This document shows, one piece after another, positions 3,245 to 35,467 of a stretch of 64,000 nucleotides of DNA (positions within the stretch are counted from its first letter, which is position 1; every line of letters begins with the position of its first letter). Origin of the DNA: Bacteroides finegoldii DSM 17565. GTDB taxonomy: Bacteria > Bacteroidota > Bacteroidia > Bacteroidales > Bacteroidaceae. Under the pieces are notes generated by a model. It saw only the letters and a program-made list of their open reading frames with translations. It ran no database searches and was not told the DNA's origin. A program made the translations under genes and the position numbers. Location: assembly GCF_000156195.1 (NCBI RefSeq), contig NZ_GG688323.1, forward strand, positions 152,856 to 216,855, given 5' to 3'.

Positions 3245-4779
3245 TATTTTTTTATTTTTAAAATACGGAAAAGAAAAAATCTAAATTCTTTAAAAATTAG
3301 AGTCATGGCAACTGTTGACAATAGTGAATAAGTTATTACTATCATAAATCCGTCAAGAGACCAATCTAATATGCTCTTCGGATTGTTAACACTTAGTCCT
3401 ATTCTTACAGATCTAATGCCCAAAAATGCAATCATTAAAGGAAAACAACACTTAAGCCATTTAATCCAATATTGTAATAAAGAAGCGTCAAATCCTTTCT
3501 TATACAGATAGTAAGGTTTCCATCCACATAAAATAACAATTAAACTAAAACAATTTGCAAATATAATACCGTTTAAAGACCAATAATATCCCCCTATAAT
3601 TGCTACTATAATAAATATAATTGTTTGAATAATTGAGGACCATACATCACGAAATAATCCATATCCATATAAAAATTGTCCTATTGTACCTTGTGTCAAT
3701 CTAATAAAAATATTAAAAAGGATTAGATAAAGAGTTATCCTACTAAGCACATACTGTTCCCCTAACCATATAATTATAAATGAATCCATTAAATAAAAAA
3801 TAGGAATTACAATTAATCCGGCAAACCAAAAACGAATAGACGTTAATTCCCAAAAAACTTCAATTATCTTTTTCCTATTACCTTCTGCAATAAGATTTCC
3901 AATCCCAGCACTTGTACTGTTTAAGAAGCTATTCATTAACAAACTCAATTTATCTATTACTAAAGTATAATTTCCATAATATGTTACGATTTGTAATGAA
4001 GTAAATGCGTAAACAAAAAATGGTGATAATTGAAATTGCACAAAGTTTGCAATTTGATGTACAAACAATTGCTTCGTGTATTTCATCACCTCCGGATACT
4101 TCTTAAAAAGAATCCTTCCCTGACTGACTTCTGATCTCAACCACGGATATACCTGATTTATTTTCCAATTCAATATAAAGGAATAGATAATACCAAAAGA
4201 GAGTTCAACAATCACCCACAAATAGTAGTTTCCTGTATAATAGGCTAAAGCCATTTGAATGATTGTTTTTATAATAGTGGCCGTCTGAAAATAAGCAGTA
4301 ACTACATAATTCTTCTGGTCAGCTCCCAACAAAGTCTGTTTATAGTTAGCAAAGTAACCAATTAAAGAAGAAGCGAGAAAAGAAAAATAAGCAAAGAAAA
4401 TAAGTCCTAAATCAAACTCTGTATTGGGGAATATAAGCGGAAGAAAACAAGCCAATATACATCCGGCTATCAATATAATTTTTCCTATCCAACGGTATAA
4501 GTAGCCAAATACAGAAATAATCTCATTGATCTTTGTTTCATCGTGATCGAATAACGGCTTATAAAGTACGTAACCAATAGCACTGCCAATACCCAATTCT
4601 GCCAGATTGAGGAAACCTAACAGATTTTGCAATGTGCCTGTCAATCCGACAAAATCCGCTCCTAACGTATCAAGAAATATCTTTCGAGAAAAGAAAGATA
4701 ATGCTAGAGTCAGGAAATAAAAAATAAGATTGACACGCGCGTTAAGCAAGGATTTCCTTACGCGAGATTCTTGTGACAT
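3244..4779 (-). CDS. Wzx-like polysaccharide flippase (MOP superfamily)
   Basis: A 511-residue polytopic membrane protein expected to flip undecaprenyl-linked repeat units across the inner membrane. About 12-14 hydrophobic segments are visible, beginning after a short basic start (RVRKSLLNARVNLIFYFL). Family-like features include SRKIFLDTLGADFVGLTGTL and LLGFLNLAELGIGSAIGYVL in the first two helices, the usual start of Bacteroidetes O-antigen translocases. It sits 14 bases downstream of the Wzc-like kinase gene, and its stop overlaps the start of the pyruvyltransferase. The DNA is much more AT-rich than the kinase gene upstream, as is common where a conserved export half meets a variable biosynthesis half of a capsule locus. 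Confidence 0.85.
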   Translation of the reverse strand: MSQESRVRKSLLNARVNLIFYFLTLALSFFSRKIFLDTLGADFVGLTGTLQNLLGFLNLAELGIGSAIGYVLYKPLFDHDETKINEIISVFGYLYRWIGKIILIAGCILACFLPLIFPNTEFDLGLIFFAYFSFLASSLIGYFANYKQTLLGADQKNYVVTAYFQTATIIKTIIQMALAYYTGNYYLWVIVELSFGIIYSFILNWKINQVYPWLRSEVSQGRILFKKYPEVMKYTKQLFVHQIANFVQFQLSPFFVYAFTSLQIVTYYGNYTLVIDKLSLLMNSFLNSTSAGIGNLIAEGNRKKIIEVFWELTSIRFWFAGLIVIPIFYLMDSFIIIWLGEQYVLSRITLYLILFNIFIRLTQGTIGQFLYGYGLFRDVWSSIIQTIIFIIVAIIGGYYWSLNGIIFANCFSLIVILCGWKPYYLYKKGFDASLLQYWIKWLKCCFPLMIAFLGIRSVRIGLSVNNPKSILDWSLDGFMIVITYSLLSTVAMTLIFKEFRFFLFRILKIKK

Positions 4780-4793
4780 AAATTGTAATTAAA

Positions 4794-7163
4794 TTATTCT
4801 TTTTCTGAATAATACCCATTTACATGCCCGTATCCGTAGCCATATCCATAACCTTGCCCGTAACCGTAGCCGTACTTCTTCTTTTCTACCTGACTGTCAT
4901 TCAACACGATACACATATTCTTGAATTTGCCGTCCTGATGCAAGCGTTCCAGTTCGGGCAAGTAACGGCGGTCTAACACTCCGTCACGAATAACATAGAT
5001 TGTGAGATCTGTCACACGGCTGACGATGGCCGCATCTGCCACCACCAAAGCGGGGACATTATCCAAGATGATGTAATCATACCGTTTCTTCAGTTCGTCG
5101 ATCAGCTGATCAAAACGTTCATTCATCAGCAGTTCTGCCGGATTGGGAGGAATGATTCCCGCAAAGATGGTATCGACTTGAGGATGGAAAGCTCCGACGG
5201 TTATCAGAGTGTCCGGATTTGAATTCAGACCGGACAGATAGGTACTTAATCCTTCTTTCCTGTTTACTCCCGCCAATTTACTTTGAGTGTGTTTGCGCAG
5301 GTCTGTGTCGAGTAATATGACTTTCTTTCCGGAAATAGCTAAAGCAACCGCCAGATTGCGGGAGACAAATGATTTTCCTTCGCCGGACAAGGTAGAGGTG
5401 AACATCAGGACACGGGCTTCTTTCGCTATGAAGTTCAGATCGACACGGAGCATACGGAAAGCTTCGGAGATACGGTCGTTTCTGCTATCACTTACTACAA
5501 TCGCATCGTCTCCTTCCGAATCTTTGCGTGCCGGAATCTCACCGACAATCGGAATGGTAGTGTATTCTTCAATATCCTTACGTCCGCGGACGGATGTGTT
5601 CAACAGCAGGATGATGACCTGTACTCCCAATGGTATCAGCAGCCCTACTATAAAGGCAGCAGCCAGTATGGAAGAACGTGCGGGAGATACCGGTGAATAG
5701 GAGCCGAAAGGTTCTTCAACCACCCGGATATTGGCTTCGGTAATGGCCAGTTGCAAGGCGTTCTCTTCACGTTTGTTGAGCAGGAAGGTATAGAGGGTCT
5801 CTTTAATAGATTGCTGGCGCATAATGCTCAACGCCATCTTTTCCTGCTTGGGTACTGCCTGAATGCTTGACGCCAGGCGGTTCTCCACTGCTTTTGCCTT
5901 ATCCAGACGAAGACGCAAGGTTTTCATATAATTGTCCATAGAGCCTGAAATTGTCGCACGCATTCCTTCCAGATTCTTATCCGCTGCCTGAACTACGGGA
6001 TTCTTCTCGCCCGAACTTTCTTTCAGGCGGTTGCGTTGCAACATAAGTTCGTTATAGGCGGTAATCTGGCTCTGCATACTGACATCTCCCACTCCTGTCA
6101 CGTTCGGAATCAGCTGGTCTTTGCGGGTAACATCCGCCAGGTAGGTCTTGATGGACCGCGCAATAGACAACTCTGTCTCCAATTGTGCGCTTTCTTCCTT
6201 TACTTTACTGCTCTCAGCCAAGTATTGCGTGGCATTGGCACTCATATCTACAATCTGATTGCGTTGCTTGAAATCGGTGAGGTCTTCTTCTACGTCACTT
6301 AGTTCACGGCTGATAATAGAGATACGTTCGTCAATGAATTTAGCTGTGTTGGCCGCAATGCGGTTTTTATCTTCTATGATCGTCTCGCTGTATACTTTCA
6401 CCAAAGCGGCCAGAATAGCGTCGGCACGGGATATATTGGTATCGGAACAGGTTATCTGTACCAACGTGGTGCGTTCGCCTGCCAATGAGGTCGCTATCTT
6501 GGACTGGTAAATGTTTGTTGCTATCTCCGGACTGATACGGCTGACTGATATCGGTTGGGAAAGATAGGCGGACAAGTTTTCCGGACGCAACTGCACGACG
6601 ATTCTTCCCGCTTCTGTCCGGATGGTGTCATTGTACGTTAGGTCCTGCTCCTGCATTCGGCCCTTTTCTCCCGCCACTTTCCAGTCGGATATACGGAACT
6701 TTGTCGTGTTGAGGGGAGTAATATTGAATGACACTGGCTGATTGTAAGGGTCGATAAAATGAACTTCTACCGGTGATTCCGCATAAAGGGGAGCATCACG
6801 CAGTATGCCGTCTTTGGCATAACCCACATCCAGATGAAGGCGATTGACTACTTCACGAAGCAACTGGTGGGAACGCAGGATATAGATTTCATTATCGACA
6901 CTGGTTCCTGTTATGCCTCCGCTCACTTCGAGCATGGCGGACATGTCCGAAGCGGATTTTTCTTTATCTTTCACCAGCATCACTGCCTGGCGCTGATAGA
7001 CCGGCTGAATGGTCAGTACATAAAAATAAGCTGATCCCACGCATACTAAAACGGACAGGACAAACCAGTACCAGTTGGCTATGATCAGTTCGACGACATC
7101 ACGAAGATTGATTCCTCCTTCGTCTTTCTTGGGTGTTCTCTCGTTTTCCTGAATATATTCCAT
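4794..7163 (-). CDS. Wzc-like polysaccharide co-polymerase and tyrosine autokinase
   Basis: A 789-residue inner-membrane protein controlling chain length and export of polysaccharide. A first membrane helix near residues 30-50 and a second near 510-530 flank a long periplasmic Wzz-type coiled-coil region. The cytoplasmic bacterial tyrosine kinase domain has a Walker A motif (STLSGEGKSFVSRNLAVAL), Walker A' (VILLDTDLRK) and Walker B (YIILDNVPALVVAD). The tail holds nine tyrosines in an alternating Gly-Tyr stretch, the expected autophosphorylation cluster. It lies ten bases after the Wza-like gene, giving the usual order export channel then kinase. The Gly-Tyr tail is encoded by near-repeats of six bases and could vary in length. 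Family assignment is firm; the polymer is not known. Confidence 0.93.
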   Translation of the reverse strand: MEYIQENERTPKKDEGGINLRDVVELIIANWYWFVLSVLVCVGSAYFYVLTIQPVYQRQAVMLVKDKEKSASDMSAMLEVSGGITGTSVDNEIYILRSHQLLREVVNRLHLDVGYAKDGILRDAPLYAESPVEVHFIDPYNQPVSFNITPLNTTKFRISDWKVAGEKGRMQEQDLTYNDTIRTEAGRIVVQLRPENLSAYLSQPISVSRISPEIATNIYQSKIATSLAGERTTLVQITCSDTNISRADAILAALVKVYSETIIEDKNRIAANTAKFIDERISIISRELSDVEEDLTDFKQRNQIVDMSANATQYLAESSKVKEESAQLETELSIARSIKTYLADVTRKDQLIPNVTGVGDVSMQSQITAYNELMLQRNRLKESSGEKNPVVQAADKNLEGMRATISGSMDNYMKTLRLRLDKAKAVENRLASSIQAVPKQEKMALSIMRQQSIKETLYTFLLNKREENALQLAITEANIRVVEEPFGSYSPVSPARSSILAAAFIVGLLIPLGVQVIILLLNTSVRGRKDIEEYTTIPIVGEIPARKDSEGDDAIVVSDSRNDRISEAFRMLRVDLNFIAKEARVLMFTSTLSGEGKSFVSRNLAVALAISGKKVILLDTDLRKHTQSKLAGVNRKEGLSTYLSGLNSNPDTLITVGAFHPQVDTIFAGIIPPNPAELLMNERFDQLIDELKKRYDYIILDNVPALVVADAAIVSRVTDLTIYVIRDGVLDRRYLPELERLHQDGKFKNMCIVLNDSQVEKKKYGYGYGQGYGYGYGYGHVNGYYSEKE

Positions 7164-29161: not shown

Positions 29162-32011
29162 ATGAAAACCGATTTGTTAGCTAGCCGTCACATCGGCATC
29201 AATGAACAAGACACAGCCGTAATGCTTCGCAAGATTGGTGTAGAATCATTAGACGAACTTATTGACAAAACAATTCCTGCCAATATCCGGCTGAAAGAAC
29301 CGCTTGCATTGACTAGTCCGTTGACGGAATACGAATTTGGAAAACACATAGCCACATTGGCTGGTAAAAACAAACTTTATACGACCTATATTGGATTGGG
29401 TTGGTATAATACGATTACTCCTGCCGTCATTCAACGGAATGTATTCGAGAATCCGGTGTGGTACACCTCTTATACTCCTTATCAGACGGAAGTATCACAG
29501 GGACGTCTGGAAGCATTGATGAACTTTCAGACTGCCGTATGTGACCTCACCGCCATGCCGCTAGCCAACTGCTCATTGCTCGACGAAGGTACTGCCGCTG
29601 CCGAAGCCGTAAGTATGATGTATGCCCTCCGCTCACGCGCACAGCAAAAGTCCGGCGCCAATGTAGTCTTTGTGGACGAAAATATTTTCCCGCAGACATT
29701 GGCTGTTATGACAACACGTGCCGTTCCTCAAGGTATCGAACTGCGTGTCGGCAAATATAAAGAGTTCGAACCTTCACCGGAAATATTCGCCTGCCTCTTG
29801 CAATATCCCAATTCCAACGGAAATGTGGAAGACTATGCCGCATTCACAGAGAAAGCGCATACGGCAGAATGCAAAGTGGCTGTTGCTGCCGATATTCTGA
29901 GCCTTGCCCTGCTGACTCCTCCGGGAGAATGGGGAGCGGACATCGTGTTTGGAACAACGCAACGTTTAGGTACGCCCATGTTCTATGGCGGTCCGTCTGC
30001 AGCCTACTTCGCCACACGGGATGAGTATAAGCGGAATATGCCGGGACGAATCATCGGATGGTCTAAAGATAAATATGGAAAACTCTGTTACCGGATGGCA
30101 TTGCAGACTCGCGAACAGCACATCAAACGTGAAAAAGCGACCTCAAATATATGCACGGCACAGGCTCTGTTGGCCACAATGGCAGGCTTCTATGCAGTCT
30201 ACCACGGACAGGAAGGAATTTCGACCATTGCCTCCCGCATCCACAGTATCACAGTGTTTCTCGACAAGCAACTGAAGAAATTCGGTTACACGCAAGTAAA
30301 TGCACAATATTTCGACACACTGCGTTTTGAATTGCCCGAACACGTTTCCGCACAACAGATTCGCACGATTGCTCTTAGCAAGGAAGTTAATCTGAGGTAT
30401 TACGAGAACGGAGACGTAGGTTTCAGTATTGACGAAACAACGGACATTGCAGCCGTTAATGTGCTGCTTTCCATTTTCGCCATTGCCTCCGGAAAGGACT
30501 ATCAGAAGGTAGACGACATCCCGGAAAGAAATACGATCAGCAAAGCCTTGAAACGTACGACTCCTTTCCTTACCCATGAAGTGTTCAGAAAATATCATAC
30601 GGAAACGGAAATGATGCGTTATATCAAACGCTTGGATCGAAAGGATATCTCATTGGCGCAATCCATGATCTCTCTCGGATCATGCACCATGAAGCTGAAT
30701 GCAGCCGCAGAAATGTTGCCTTTAAGCCGTTCCGAGTTTATGGGAATGCATCCGTTAGTTCCGGAAGACCAGGCGGAAGGGTATCGTGAACTTATAAGGA
30801 ATTTGAGTGACGACTTGAAGATTATTACCGGCTTCGCCGGTGTCAGCCTACAACCGAATTCGGGGGCTGCGGGAGAATATACGGGCCTTCGCGTTATTCG
30901 TGCCTATCTGGAAAGTATAGGTCAAGGACACCGGAACAAGATATTGATACCCGCATCGGCTCATGGAACGAATCCTGCATCGGCTATCCAGGCGGGATTT
31001 ACAACAATCACCTGCGCGTGCGACGAGCACGGAAATGTGAAGATGGATGACTTACGTACCAAAGCCGAAGAGAACAAGGAGGAATTGGCTGCGCTGATGA
31101 TCACTTATCCCTCCACCCACGGTATATTTGAAACGGAAATAAAAGAGATCTGCGACATTATCCATGCTTGCGGAGCGCAAGTATATATGGATGGAGCCAA
31201 TATGAACGCGCAAGTGGGATTGACTAATCCGGGATTCATCGGCGCGGATGTCTGCCACTTGAATCTTCATAAGACATTCGCCTCACCACACGGTGGCGGA
31301 GGTCCGGGAGTAGGTCCTATCTGTGTAGCGGAACATCTGGTTCCTTTCCTGCCCGGACACGGTATCTTCGGCAATACACAGAATCAGGTATCGTCCGCTC
31401 CGTTCGGTAGTGCGGGTATTCTCCCCATTACATACGGATATATCCGGATGATGGGTACGGAAGGACTCACCCAAGCTACAAAAATAGCGATCTTGAACGC
31501 CAACTATCTGGCTGCCTGTCTGAAAGATACATACGGCATTGTCTATCGTGGAGCAAATGGTTTTGTTGGTCATGAGATGATTCTGGAATGCCGCAAAGTG
31601 TACGAAGAGACCGGTATCTCCGAAAATGACATCGCCAAGCGTTTGATGGACTACGGTTATCATGCCCCTACCCTCTCATTCCCTGTTCACGGCACATTGA
31701 TGATTGAACCTACGGAAAGCGAGAGTTTGGCGGAATTGGATAACTTCGTAGCTGTCATGCTGAATATCTGGAAAGAGATTCAGGAAGTGAAGAATGGCGA
31801 AGCGGACAAGAACGATAATGTATTGGCTAACGCGCCGCATCCGGAATACGAGGTTGTGAATGACCGTTGGGAACATTCCTACACACGTGAGAAGGCAGCT
31901 TATCCGATAGAGAGTGTACGCGATAATAAATTCTGGGCAAATGTAGCACGTGTAGACAACACATTGGGAGACCGTAAGTTGCTACCCACTCGCTATGATA
32001 CCTTTGAGTAA
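29162..32011 (+). CDS. gcvP: Glycine dehydrogenase (decarboxylating), P-protein
   Basis: The PLP enzyme of the glycine cleavage system, which decarboxylates glycine and passes the aminomethyl group to lipoylated H-protein. At 949 residues it is the single-chain form with both halves fused. The N-terminal half starts SRHIGINEQDTAVMLRKIGV; the C-terminal half has the PLP lysine in HLNLHKTFASPHGGGGPGVG, and QPNSGAAGEYTGLRVIRAYL and PASAHGTNPASAIQAGFTTI in the active site. The other gcv genes are not in the window, and no glycine riboswitch was seen before it. It follows the MBL gene by 20 bases and ends in a hairpin. Confidence 0.97.
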   Translation: MKTDLLASRHIGINEQDTAVMLRKIGVESLDELIDKTIPANIRLKEPLALTSPLTEYEFGKHIATLAGKNKLYTTYIGLGWYNTITPAVIQRNVFENPVWYTSYTPYQTEVSQGRLEALMNFQTAVCDLTAMPLANCSLLDEGTAAAEAVSMMYALRSRAQQKSGANVVFVDENIFPQTLAVMTTRAVPQGIELRVGKYKEFEPSPEIFACLLQYPNSNGNVEDYAAFTEKAHTAECKVAVAADILSLALLTPPGEWGADIVFGTTQRLGTPMFYGGPSAAYFATRDEYKRNMPGRIIGWSKDKYGKLCYRMALQTREQHIKREKATSNICTAQALLATMAGFYAVYHGQEGISTIASRIHSITVFLDKQLKKFGYTQVNAQYFDTLRFELPEHVSAQQIRTIALSKEVNLRYYENGDVGFSIDETTDIAAVNVLLSIFAIASGKDYQKVDDIPERNTISKALKRTTPFLTHEVFRKYHTETEMMRYIKRLDRKDISLAQSMISLGSCTMKLNAAAEMLPLSRSEFMGMHPLVPEDQAEGYRELIRNLSDDLKIITGFAGVSLQPNSGAAGEYTGLRVIRAYLESIGQGHRNKILIPASAHGTNPASAIQAGFTTITCACDEHGNVKMDDLRTKAEENKEELAALMITYPSTHGIFETEIKEICDIIHACGAQVYMDGANMNAQVGLTNPGFIGADVCHLNLHKTFASPHGGGGPGVGPICVAEHLVPFLPGHGIFGNTQNQVSSAPFGSAGILPITYGYIRMMGTEGLTQATKIAILNANYLAACLKDTYGIVYRGANGFVGHEMILECRKVYEETGISENDIAKRLMDYGYHAPTLSFPVHGTLMIEPTESESLAELDNFVAVMLNIWKEIQEVKNGEADKNDNVLANAPHPEYEVVNDRWEHSYTREKAAYPIESVRDNKFWANVARVDNTLGDRKLLPTRYDTFE

Positions 32012-32161: not shown

Positions 32162-32740
32162 CTACTTAACAATAGTTACAGTATCCGCTTTTACCTTCTT
32201 CTCTTTCATTGGAATCTTCGGATCGCCATATCCTAACGCAACACAGCCATATACTTTATGACTAACCGGTACTCCCAATGCAGTGATAAATTCACGTACT
32301 CCGGGATCATCACAAGTCGTACCTAACTGATTGATCCAACAAGAGCCGATACCTAAAGACTGTGCAGCCAAAAACATATTCTCTATTGCACAAGCGCAAT
32401 CCATACCCGCCCACCATTGAGTAGGTTCGTTCGAAACGATTACCAAAGTCGGGGCATGATAGTAACAGCAATAAGCCTTATTGCGGGCACGTTCCTGCAA
32501 ACGGACATCATCACTTTTAGCAAAAGCTCCTTTTATGCGTTCATTTAGTTCTGCCAGTTTACTGACATTCTGGATAGCAGTGAAATGCCATGTTTCCAAA
32601 TGCATTCCACTCGGAGCATACGTTGCAGCCTCCAGGATTGTCCGCAAATCTTCTTCCGGAACTTGTTGCTCCGTATAAGCACGCACGCTACGGCGCGCCT
32701 TGATGTTTTCTAAAACTTCATTTGTTTTCATGGGCGACAA
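32162..32740 (-). CDS. Nitroreductase family protein
   Basis: A 192-residue FMN-dependent oxidoreductase (PF00881) reducing nitro groups or quinones with NAD(P)H. FMN-binding residues are seen in IKARRSVRAYTEQQVPEEDL and ATYAPSGMHLETWHFTAIQN; the later signature is NMFLAAQSLGIGSCWINQLG, and VYGCVALGYGDPKIPMKEKK closes the fold. It follows the HpaII-like gene by 61 bases in the same direction. The natural substrate is unknown; such enzymes in Bacteroides are of interest for activating metronidazole, which is family knowledge, not shown here. Confidence 0.92.
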   Translation of the reverse strand: MSPMKTNEVLENIKARRSVRAYTEQQVPEEDLRTILEAATYAPSGMHLETWHFTAIQNVSKLAELNERIKGAFAKSDDVRLQERARNKAYCCYYHAPTLVIVSNEPTQWWAGMDCACAIENMFLAAQSLGIGSCWINQLGTTCDDPGVREFITALGVPVSHKVYGCVALGYGDPKIPMKEKKVKADTVTIVK

Positions 32741-32801: not shown

Positions 32802-33887
32802 CTACCGTTTGACCAATCCGATCTTTGCGTTTAGTTTGAAATAATAGACCCCATTCTCCCTCTCCAAAAATCCGTATTTATCCTTCTCCAAAGATCCTTT
32901 TTCGAAGCGAGTATTCAGAAACAAGAAATCTTCCATCACTTGTTTCTCGGATTTATGGTAGCAAAGCACATCTCCATTACCATCTACCAGCAGAATACCT
33001 TCCACTGCCGAATCCAGCCCGGTATAAATCTTTGCAGGACGCATTCCCAATGCCAGTGCCATCAGAAATTGCTTTATTTTAAATTCATAGAACTTATGCT
33101 TGTTTATCAGCTCATCCTTGATCTTCAGCGGATTCATTTGTTTGATAATCTCCGTCAACTCACTCACACGCGATATGCCGTCAAGGTGCATAATACGAAC
33201 CATCTCTGTCAGTACACGCGGGAAATGCAAATCAATCATCAAAAGATTGCTACGAAATACACGGTCGGCCACATCCGAATATTTAAGTACTCCTCCCAAA
33301 CGTTCGATCATCATCATACGCTCGGCAACTTCATTAGGGCTCTCCGGCAAAGCATTGATCTTGTTTACTGTCGGAGTAGCAAATTTAATCCCGGTCTGCT
33401 CCAGCTTAAGATTCGCCGCACGCCCTCCATCCAACAATGGATTCATGGCACTCAACCGCGAACGGACATTAAATCCTCTCAAAGGCGCTTCCGAATGCCA
33501 GAATGCAATAGAGAAATCGGTGCGATCCTCCGTTTTTGCCTCCAAGTCGAAGATAGCCGCTTCATCCAGAAACTCCTCTACTCCATCCGGAGAGGTCACA
33601 TCGTTTTCCGAAGAGGATTTAACCGCTTTCAGTATCAAGTCCGCTACGATACCGAAATCTTCACGAGACATAGTTTTAACTCCTGTTTCCCCTTCTATGC
33701 GAATCGTCTCTTCCTCAATATAATACCGACGTGTCCCGTCGTGCTCTTCCCTCTGAATCATTGCAACAGGCCAGAATATATCTCCTGCCTTTGCTTCCGC
33801 CGTGCCTAACGCTACTCTCCCGTCCGCCAACAAACGGAAGAAAGTATAAAGTTCACACCATTCTTTTTTAGTTGCTTCGAATGCCAT
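32802..33887 (-). CDS. HpaII-family restriction endonuclease-like protein
   Basis: A 361-residue protein that I assign to the HpaII family (PF09561), whose named member cuts CCGG. Matching stretches are the central DFSIAFWHSEAPLRGFNVRS, with the following PLLDGGRAANLKLEQ, and the C-terminal EGILLVDGNGDVLCYHKSE then EDFLFLNTRFEKGS, GFLERENGVYYFKLNAKIGL. I recall the same order in HpaII-type enzymes; the catalytic residues were not assigned. No cytosine methyltransferase or Vsr gene is nearby: neighbours are a nitroreductase and a C39 peptidase. Either the protection gene lies elsewhere, or the protein no longer cuts. It is intact, with base composition like its neighbours. Confidence 0.65.
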   Translation of the reverse strand: MAFEATKKEWCELYTFFRLLADGRVALGTAEAKAGDIFWPVAMIQREEHDGTRRYYIEEETIRIEGETGVKTMSREDFGIVADLILKAVKSSSENDVTSPDGVEEFLDEAAIFDLEAKTEDRTDFSIAFWHSEAPLRGFNVRSRLSAMNPLLDGGRAANLKLEQTGIKFATPTVNKINALPESPNEVAERMMMIERLGGVLKYSDVADRVFRSNLLMIDLHFPRVLTEMVRIMHLDGISRVSELTEIIKQMNPLKIKDELINKHKFYEFKIKQFLMALALGMRPAKIYTGLDSAVEGILLVDGNGDVLCYHKSEKQVMEDFLFLNTRFEKGSLEKDKYGFLERENGVYYFKLNAKIGLVKR

Positions 33888-33990: not shown

Positions 33991-34797
33991 CTACTGATTG
34001 ATAACCTGCGGCAAAATTGCAGACGGCACAACCGGAGGAAGGATATGAGTCACCTCTTCCAACGGAGGGAGCTTGCCGACTTGTGCAAACAGGGAGTTCC
34101 GTATCCATTCTCCGGGAGTGACTACGATAAATCGTCCCGTCCAGCAACCATCAAAATAAGAAGGATTGCCCGGCTGTTTCTTAATAGGATAACAGATGTT
34201 TTCCCCTTTGCTCCGCATCTCCGGTGAACGTCCGGGATCATTCACCCACACATATTTGTCATCAATACCGCGAAGTACCATCCAATGTCCTCTCGGACCG
34301 GGACGCAAACCACGAACCGCACCTGTATATCTCACATTCACAAGCACAGGTATACCACGATCGATATAATCTTTCAATATCCGATAATCTTTCTGCTGGA
34401 AATGTTCGGCACTTATCATGTTTTCATAATAGCGTGCCAAAGAATCAATTTCAAAAGAATAGTATCCTCCTTGCCCTATCGAAGTGCGACGACGGAAAGG
34501 AGCACGCTTTTTCAGAAAGTAATTCCGCTGATATTCAATCAGTTTCTGTTCTGCATCCTGAGCTGTGCGTTGCGTATCAGCCGTCATCCCTTTAAAATAA
34601 TCAAAGACCATTAACGAGGAAGCCAGAGAACAATGCGAATAAGGGTATCCCGCTATTTTCTGCGAATACCAAGGAACAGGAATGTTGTTGGGAGCGAACT
34701 TTTGAGCTTCCTGTGCACAGGCTTGTACACCGTTCCACACAAGAAAAACCAAAAGTAATCTCGATATCATGTAGTATTTCTTTCTCATCCGGTTCAA
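33991..34797 (-). CDS. Exported C39-like cysteine peptidase
   Basis: A 268-residue papain-like protein of the Peptidase_C39_2 type (PF13529). A basic N-terminus and hydrophobic stretch (ISRLLLVFLVWNGVQACAQE) form a signal peptide, possibly a lipoprotein signal though the lipobox is weak. The catalytic set is visible: Cys in YPYSHCSLASSLMVFDYFKG, His in RGHWMVLRGIDDKYVW and Asp in VNDPGRSPEMR. It lacks the transporter domains of bacteriocin-processing C39 proteins, so it is a stand-alone secreted peptidase of unknown target. It sits 52 bases after yigZ. The C-terminal tail is Pro-rich (LPPLEEVTHILPPVVPSAIL). Confidence 0.8.
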   Translation of the reverse strand: MNRMRKKYYMISRLLLVFLVWNGVQACAQEAQKFAPNNIPVPWYSQKIAGYPYSHCSLASSLMVFDYFKGMTADTQRTAQDAEQKLIEYQRNYFLKKRAPFRRRTSIGQGGYYSFEIDSLARYYENMISAEHFQQKDYRILKDYIDRGIPVLVNVRYTGAVRGLRPGPRGHWMVLRGIDDKYVWVNDPGRSPEMRSKGENICYPIKKQPGNPSYFDGCWTGRFIVVTPGEWIRNSLFAQVGKLPPLEEVTHILPPVVPSAILPQVINQ

Positions 34798-34849: not shown

Positions 34850-35467
34850 TCAATGATTTTCTTCTTCATCCAAAATCCGAGCCGTTTCTACCTTTTCCAG
34901 CCGAGCACGCAGTTTCGCCATCATCGAACGACGAATGCGCAATGTCATACTGCAATCCATATCATACGACTGATTGAGTATTTCCGGTTCTTCTTCCTTC
35001 ACGATACGCATTATATCATTCATAAAAGGATACTCAAACATAACAGTCACTTCCTCGTCCACCGTTTTTTCTATGATTGTAGCGGCAGCAATGGCTTCGG
35101 CAGCAGCAGCCTTGTAAGCTACAATCAATCCGCTTGTGCCCAACTTGATTCCACCGAAATAACGGACTACAATGATCAATATATCTGTCAACTCGTTCGA
35201 ATTGATTTGTCCGAGAATCGGTTTTCCTGCAGTGCCCGAAGGCTCTCCGTTATCATTGGCCCGAAAATCCTTGCGTGCTGCTCCGAGCATATAGGCATAA
35301 CACACATGGCGCGCATCATAGTATTTCTTCTGATACGTTTCAAGATGCGCCTTTATTTCATCAAGGCTACGCACAGGAAGAGCGATAGCGATAAACTTGC
35401 TTCGCTTTTCCGTATAAATACCTTCAGAGGGTTCGGAGATGGTTTTATAAGTATCTTCAGCAGTCAT
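34850..35467 (-). CDS. YigZ/IMPACT family protein
   Basis: A 205-residue protein of UPF0029 (PF01205). The N-terminal Impact domain is plain: RSKFIAIALPVRSLDEIKAH, KKYYDARHVCYAYMLGAARK, DNGEPSGTAGKPILGQIN and IIVVRYFGGIKLGTSGLIVA; a DUF1949-like domain follows (VMFEYPFMNDIMRIVKEEEP). Eukaryotic IMPACT regulates GCN2 signalling; the bacterial role is unknown. It starts after a 234-base gap containing two palindromes and leads into the C39 peptidase gene. Confidence 0.92.
   Translation of the reverse strand: MTAEDTYKTISEPSEGIYTEKRSKFIAIALPVRSLDEIKAHLETYQKKYYDARHVCYAYMLGAARKDFRANDNGEPSGTAGKPILGQINSNELTDILIIVVRYFGGIKLGTSGLIVAYKAAAAEAIAAATIIEKTVDEEVTVMFEYPFMNDIMRIVKEEEPEILNQSYDMDCSMTLRIRRSMMAKLRARLEKVETARILDEEENH

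Follow-up and report, generated by a model that had tools for sequence, protein, structure and literature searches.

A solitary HpaII-family protein of Bacteroidaceae without the presumed catalytic lysine: a candidate non-cutting DNA binder adopted by its host

A gene annotated as a restriction endonuclease in Bacteroides finegoldii probably encodes a host-adopted member of the HpaII family, most likely acting as a binder of a short DNA site that does not cut. In the set of proteins compared here, a single residue, the presumed catalytic Lys, sets the methylase-paired HpaII enzymes apart from this solitary form. The Lys has been lost throughout the clade while selection on the gene has stayed strong, which supports one of two options raised by an earlier note made from the DNA alone, namely that the protein has been domesticated.

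The gene lies in a 64,000-nucleotide stretch of DNA (hereafter the window), and its open reading frame begins with ATG. The product covers the Pfam model PF09561 (RE_HpaII) end to end (447 bits for a cut-off of 25, protein residues 6–357 aligning with model positions 1–358 of 359; Table 1), so that the HpaII-family assignment proposed in the earlier note is borne out. The surroundings are also as described there: open reading frames and Pfam matches confirm the housekeeping neighbours (nitroreductase, C39 peptidase and YigZ), no methylase was found among the genes around the HpaII-like gene, and its GC content (0.449) is that of the three adjoining genes (0.442–0.452) and of the window (0.448), gcvP being at 0.48. 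A Bacteroides finegoldii record holds an identical protein (100%) in an identical gene order, under the annotation 'HpaII family restriction endonuclease', and PADLOC assigns the window protein to REase_II (3.6e-46); catalogues therefore probably count the solitary protein as restriction. The name is apt for the ancestry of the protein but probably not for its activity. With the window protein as query, NCBIfam gave no match, PHROGs two weak ones (E 0.17 and 0.2), and the PDB chains, searched by sequence and by profile, none. Note that two records filed as extrachromosomal look like chromosomal pieces: MT837575.1 (L079), filed as a phage, has phosphoglycerate dehydrogenase, DUF1015, yigZ, C39, the HpaII-like gene, nitroreductase and gcvP in chromosomal order, and NZ_OY725969.1 (L075), filed as a B. 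finegoldii plasmid, contains gcvP, serC and nqrF.

Table 1. Positions in the window of the HpaII-like gene, of codons discussed in the text and of neighbouring genes
Feature	Position	Strand	Basis
Solitary HpaII-family protein, presumed non-cutting, 361 aa	32802..33887	-	PF09561 E=7.1e-134; clusters with non-lysine clade
Arg142 codon, in place of the lysine-type Lys	33462..33464	-	Alignment; position computed from residue number
Asp124 codon, aligned with the invariant Asp of the lysine type and kept in 159/161 solitary proteins	33516..33518	-	Position computed from residue number
Codons 153–159, solitary motif D-G-G-R-x-A-N (lysine type: N-A/S-...)	33411..33431	-	Position computed from residue numbers
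Nitroreductase	32162-32740	-	
C39-like peptidase	33991-34797	-	
UPF0029/YigZ	34850-35467	-	
gcvP, beyond nitroreductase	29162-32011	+	

The comparison set comprises 188 distinct full-length HpaII-family proteins pooled from the genus, family, phylum and other record matches, sequences identical over the last 250 residues being counted as one. Excluded were 18 rows covering fewer than 325 of the 361 window positions (including the lysine-type L078, L172 and L174 and the remnants L070, L089, L090, L168 and L241) as well as L071 and L136, which fall below the Pfam cut-off; one family match (G643), four plasmid matches and two phage matches are not in the set. The residue at window position 142 defines two groups: (i) 27 of the 188 homologues have Lys, and a C5-cytosine methylase gene lies within 2 kb in 25 of them (in a slightly different set, the methylase gene is the next one upstream, in the same orientation, for 26 of 27 loci); (ii) the 161 others, called solitary here, lack the Lys, and no methylase gene lies within 2 kb of any of them (0/161). 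In the solitary proteins, position 142 is occupied by Arg (130), Tyr (17), Gln (7), His (3), Phe (2), Cys (1) or Leu (1); the window protein has Arg142 where lysine-type homologues keep the Lys of a G-F-S-x-K-S motif. A looser filter gave the identical split, bar the misaligned partial row L168, where a Met was read next to a methylase gene. L221 and L231, the two lysine-type rows that lack a methylase, match the model only from position 20–22 on and look like remnants; L221 (G665; 5019–5642 and 4206–4970) is a copy without a start that adjoins Vsr and HNH genes. A methylase belonging to a nearby lysine-type system lies 7.7 kb from the solitary L162 and 3.7 kb from the solitary L168: in G573 (L162) and G514 (L168), one contig carries both the solitary gene and, within ~10 kb of it, a lysine-type HpaII gene with its methylase.

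Aligning the catalytic residues, a check that the earlier note had proposed, finds the presumed catalytic Lys replaced and Asp124 kept. We infer the catalytic role of this Lys from its conservation pattern and from related enzymes. In the solitary clade, D121, T123, G154 and N159 are identical in 161/161 proteins, R156 in 160/161, and R122 and D124 in 159/161, His replacing Asp124 in L176 and L178; K122, D124, S140, K142, T150 and N153 are present in 27/27 lysine-type rows of a slightly different alignment set. The Ser two residues ahead of the Lys, found in 27/27 lysine-type proteins, is lost in the solitary clade. That the presumed cutting residue varies amid invariant surroundings suggests that these surroundings are held by another demand. 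Over the whole chain, the lysine type has 49 constant positions; the solitary clade retains 26 of them, including R46, N178, N214, D219, Y267, K270 and K272, and K255, K257, K263, R283 and K286 are nearly constant in the solitary clade only. Constant positions lost versus kept number 8 versus 3 in the 116–160 hairpin and 8 versus 23 elsewhere (Fisher p=0.011), a comparison that is partly circular because the groups are set by position 142.

The window protein is predicted to keep the HpaII-family fold. AlphaFold2 models of the window protein and of the lysine-type L064 (mean pLDDT 96.0 and 94.7, respectively) have closely similar secondary-structure elements. The Foldseek search suggested in the earlier note returned nothing significant against the PDB for either model (the top row for L064 being HinP1I, E 0.064), but the best, albeit weak, structural rows were MspI and HinP1I, with Z scores of 4.8–6.4. 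In a second comparison, by VIA, the window model gave MspI at Z 6.4 (rmsd 4.3, 181 residues aligned) and HinP1I at 5.9, the first unrelated row being at 3.7, and the L064 model gave HinP1I at 6.4 and MspI at 6.0, the first unrelated row being at 4.7; values of Z below 8 may reflect a shared arrangement only, so that a PD-(D/E)XK fold of the MspI/HinP1I type is at best a tentative assignment for the catalytic domain.

Of the 99 genus genomes, 75 have a PF09561 match, and so do 56 of the 63 that are of good quality. In all 56 the gene has the non-lysine form (the G053 copy is split across two frames), which is what the comparison of the locus across Bacteroides, also proposed in the earlier note, brings out. 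Its absence from the seven other good-quality genomes indicates that the gene is dispensable to some species. In the family, PF09561 occurs in 127 of 249 genomes, with lysine and non-lysine forms mixed, the non-lysine form being present in ten coded genera of Bacteroidaceae; in the phylum, it occurs in 11 of 392 genomes (10 above cut-off). The seven full-length copies compared from outside Bacteroidaceae, which come from five phylum genomes and from Acinetobacter and Lactococcus plasmids, all belong to the lysine type and have an adjoining methylase. In a tree of 63 rows, built quickly after removal of the active-site columns, with SH-aLRT support only and a long-branch warning for L173, one branch (SH-aLRT 100) splits 38 non-lysine from 25 lysine rows, corresponding to one state change; the methylase label needs two changes. 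On this tree, the solitary form has a single origin within Bacteroidaceae. Both forms occur together in six genomes (G068, G656, G636, whose lysine copy is partial, G573, G647 and G490), so the solitary gene and the restriction system are not alleles of each other. In G067 (L089), G060 (L090), G579 (L241) and G201 (L070), C-terminal pieces of additional HpaII-family genes remain, no methylase being found next to them; they are signs of past lysine-type systems.

As regards gene order, 74/82 loci of the first sets, which are mostly from the genus, have yigZ upstream in the same orientation and 57/82 have nitroreductase downstream; in the later family loci the figures are 5/57 and 3/57, respectively. 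Given the short flanks, these counts are lower bounds. The C39 gene is missing beside the HpaII-like gene in many species. Neighbour clustering at 20 other loci, read by eye, revealed no steady gene partner, and a comparison by eye of the regions upstream of 13 orthologues revealed no convincing shared element.

These patterns bear first on the possibility that the protein is a conserved pseudo-enzyme whose work, scaffolding or the regulation of another protein for instance, is no longer linked to DNA. The net charge of the window protein, −8, is in keeping with such a role, as is the scattering of clade-specific invariant residues along the whole chain. We nevertheless regard this explanation as unlikely, though the strongest of the competitors: more than half of the lysine-type constant positions are retained, the basic residues listed above (K255 to K286) are nearly constant in the solitary clade only, and no steady gene partner was found outside the genus set. 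Note that the net charge and the metal-binding Asp kept in 159/161 proteins also count against the reading that we prefer, that of a DNA binder that does not cut, as do the weakness of the structural matches and the seven good-quality genus genomes that lack the gene.

The window protein very probably does not cut DNA, because its site is changed and because many genomes with the gene have no methylase match. Second-hand support comes from a homologue of B. thetaiotaomicron, BthVORF1149P, which the available portion of PMC3488263, citing REBASE, describes as lacking restriction endonuclease activity. It is rather improbable that the protein is still a nuclease, one whose chemistry or target has changed and which would nick, act on modified or damaged DNA or be under tight control and hence need no methylase. 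Such a nuclease would account for the retention of Asp124, and the portion of PMC4081073 considered here lists active enzymes, BamHI, BglII, NotI and even MspI, that have E, Q or N where the active-site Lys would stand, so that loss of the Lys is no proof of inactivity. Against it stand the seven different residues at position 142 inside one orthologous clade, the His in place of Asp124 in L176 and L178, the loss of the Ser that precedes the lysine-type Lys by two residues, and the homologue reported as inactive.

An ordinary but separated restriction-modification system, with its methylase elsewhere in the genome, was the other option of the earlier note. An active CCGG cutter without protection should be lethal. 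The same lethality is stated for solitary type II enzymes in the available portion of PMC3488263, which also assigns probable methylases to five of the orthologues in Bacteroides, 11 in all, and finds none for the remaining six. Cytosine methylase genes, which the earlier note had advised looking for, are indeed present in the B. finegoldii genome, three of them of the C5 type, but when these three are compared with the methylases encoded upstream of lysine-type enzymes, the best-scoring matches reach only ~26–31% identity, whereas nearly every one of those partner methylases has another partner at 60–98% identity (L074: 44%). L164 and L205 have a second methylase, located downstream, to which the host methylase L002 shows 34.6% identity. 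One of the three adjoins a gene for an NgoMIV-family enzyme: on contig C15, the frame next to this methylase (L001, L137) matches the C-terminal part of the NgoMIV model PF09015 (E=1e-84), and the host probably has a separate NgoMIV-like system. Moreover, PF00145 has no match in 20 of the 56 gene-bearing genus genomes of good quality, five of these 20 being single-contig, and all 20 carry the Arg form. PF01555 is above cut-off in 13 of these 20; seven have none above cut-off (four with a weak match below it, three with none), G060 being the only one of the five single-contig genomes among them. A distant methyltransferase is thus not supported as a general answer, and we consider a separated system very improbable. 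Avoidance of CCGG, looked at as a sign of cutting, is absent in the window (324 observed, 331 expected, ratio 0.98); the ratios for pooled solitary loci (0.89) and pooled lysine-type loci (0.73) are rough, the pools mixing species and repeated loci. In the window (1–64000), CTAG (0.41), GGCC (0.44) and GATC (0.61) fall well short of expectation.

Purifying selection on the solitary gene is strong. Relative to B. congonensis, B. acidifaciens, Bacteroides sp. GM023 and B. xylanisolvens, dN/dS is 0.019, 0.023, 0.023 and 0.034, respectively, figures that are rough since synonymous distances of 1.6–1.8 are near saturation; these are the four nearest of ten comparisons, L043 giving 0.050 and the five others being saturated at synonymous sites. 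The corresponding ranges for the neighbours are 0.019–0.024 (gcvP), 0.018–0.026 (yigZ), 0.037–0.058 (nitroreductase) and 0.068–0.123 (C39), the C39-like peptidase gene being the faster evolving. Long residence of the gene, which the earlier note had preferred to recent arrival, is upheld by GC content, synteny and dN/dS, which together disfavour the latter. Decay of a former restriction system, although the active-site Lys is lost and the G053 copy split, is scarcely credible for a gene with dN/dS as low as that of gcvP, full-length open frames in nearly all genus matches and one ancient clade.

The history that we propose for a host-adopted, non-cutting binder is as follows. The comparison and the tree place in a single Bacteroidaceae ancestor the loss, by an HpaII-type enzyme, of its methylase and of the presumed catalytic Lys; the gene then became a chromosomal resident in most good-quality genomes of the genus, under strong purifying selection. 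The protein would bind a short site, perhaps CCGG or a relative, without cleavage and may have a regulatory role, be associated with the chromosome or shield such sites. A more far-reaching version, which we put forward tentatively, is that a single domestication in Bacteroidaceae gave rise to a widespread, sequence-specific reader or shield of CCGG-like sites that binds DNA without cutting it and is part of the core chromosome in highly abundant gut bacteria, true HpaII systems meanwhile continuing to circulate in the same family. Most restriction enzymes are mobile and can be dispensed with; this one appears as a long-term resident, its non-lysine form being found in every good-quality genus genome that has the gene.

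Several known systems can be set beside the solitary protein. MspI, which cuts CCGG, and HinP1I, which cuts GCGC, are the top structural rows for both models, the first and last aligned residues lying near the chain ends, but identity is 7–15%, 174–183 of ~360 residues are aligned, and both enzymes are ~100 residues shorter. The spacing in the lysine-type L064 (D124-X18-S143-X-K145; D124-X15-N140-X-R142 in the window protein) resembles D...Q/N-x-K active sites such as that of HinP1I. For MspI, PMC4081073 gives Asn instead of the active-site Lys, which does not agree with such a site, and we do not lean on the residues of MspI. With the HpaII type II family (PF09561) and its adjacent C5 methylase, the solitary protein shares a full-length match, a similar predicted secondary structure, Asp124 and 25 further positions; it differs by the absence of an adjacent methylase, by the replacement of the Lys and Ser of S-x-K and by a motif of its own, D-R-T-D ... 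L-L-D-G-G-R-x-A-N. The open-access literature, taken as main texts, yielded no functional study of the solitary protein and no active-site comparison, Bacteroidaceae-wide clade or separation from methylase-paired enzymes; the available main text of PMC10333322 makes no mention of CCGG or HpaII, and in the portion of PMC13114119 considered, HpaII serves as a reagent. The closest precedent is the set of 11 orthologous solitary HpaII-like enzymes described in Bacteroides in 2012 (PMC3488263, available portion), to which the window protein very probably belongs as a member of the same orthologous group: the genus, the HpaII likeness and the solitary state are shared, and one of those proteins is the homologue reported as inactive. 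The anomaly has thus been known since 2012, when a changed function was proposed; the available parts of that paper go as far as this possible change and contain neither an active-site comparison nor a clade analysis. New here are the lost active-site Lys, the single Bacteroidaceae origin and the separation from true HpaII systems sharing six genomes, and the 2012 question about the role of the solitary Bacteroides proteins can now be addressed experimentally with a single protein and a small number of mutants.
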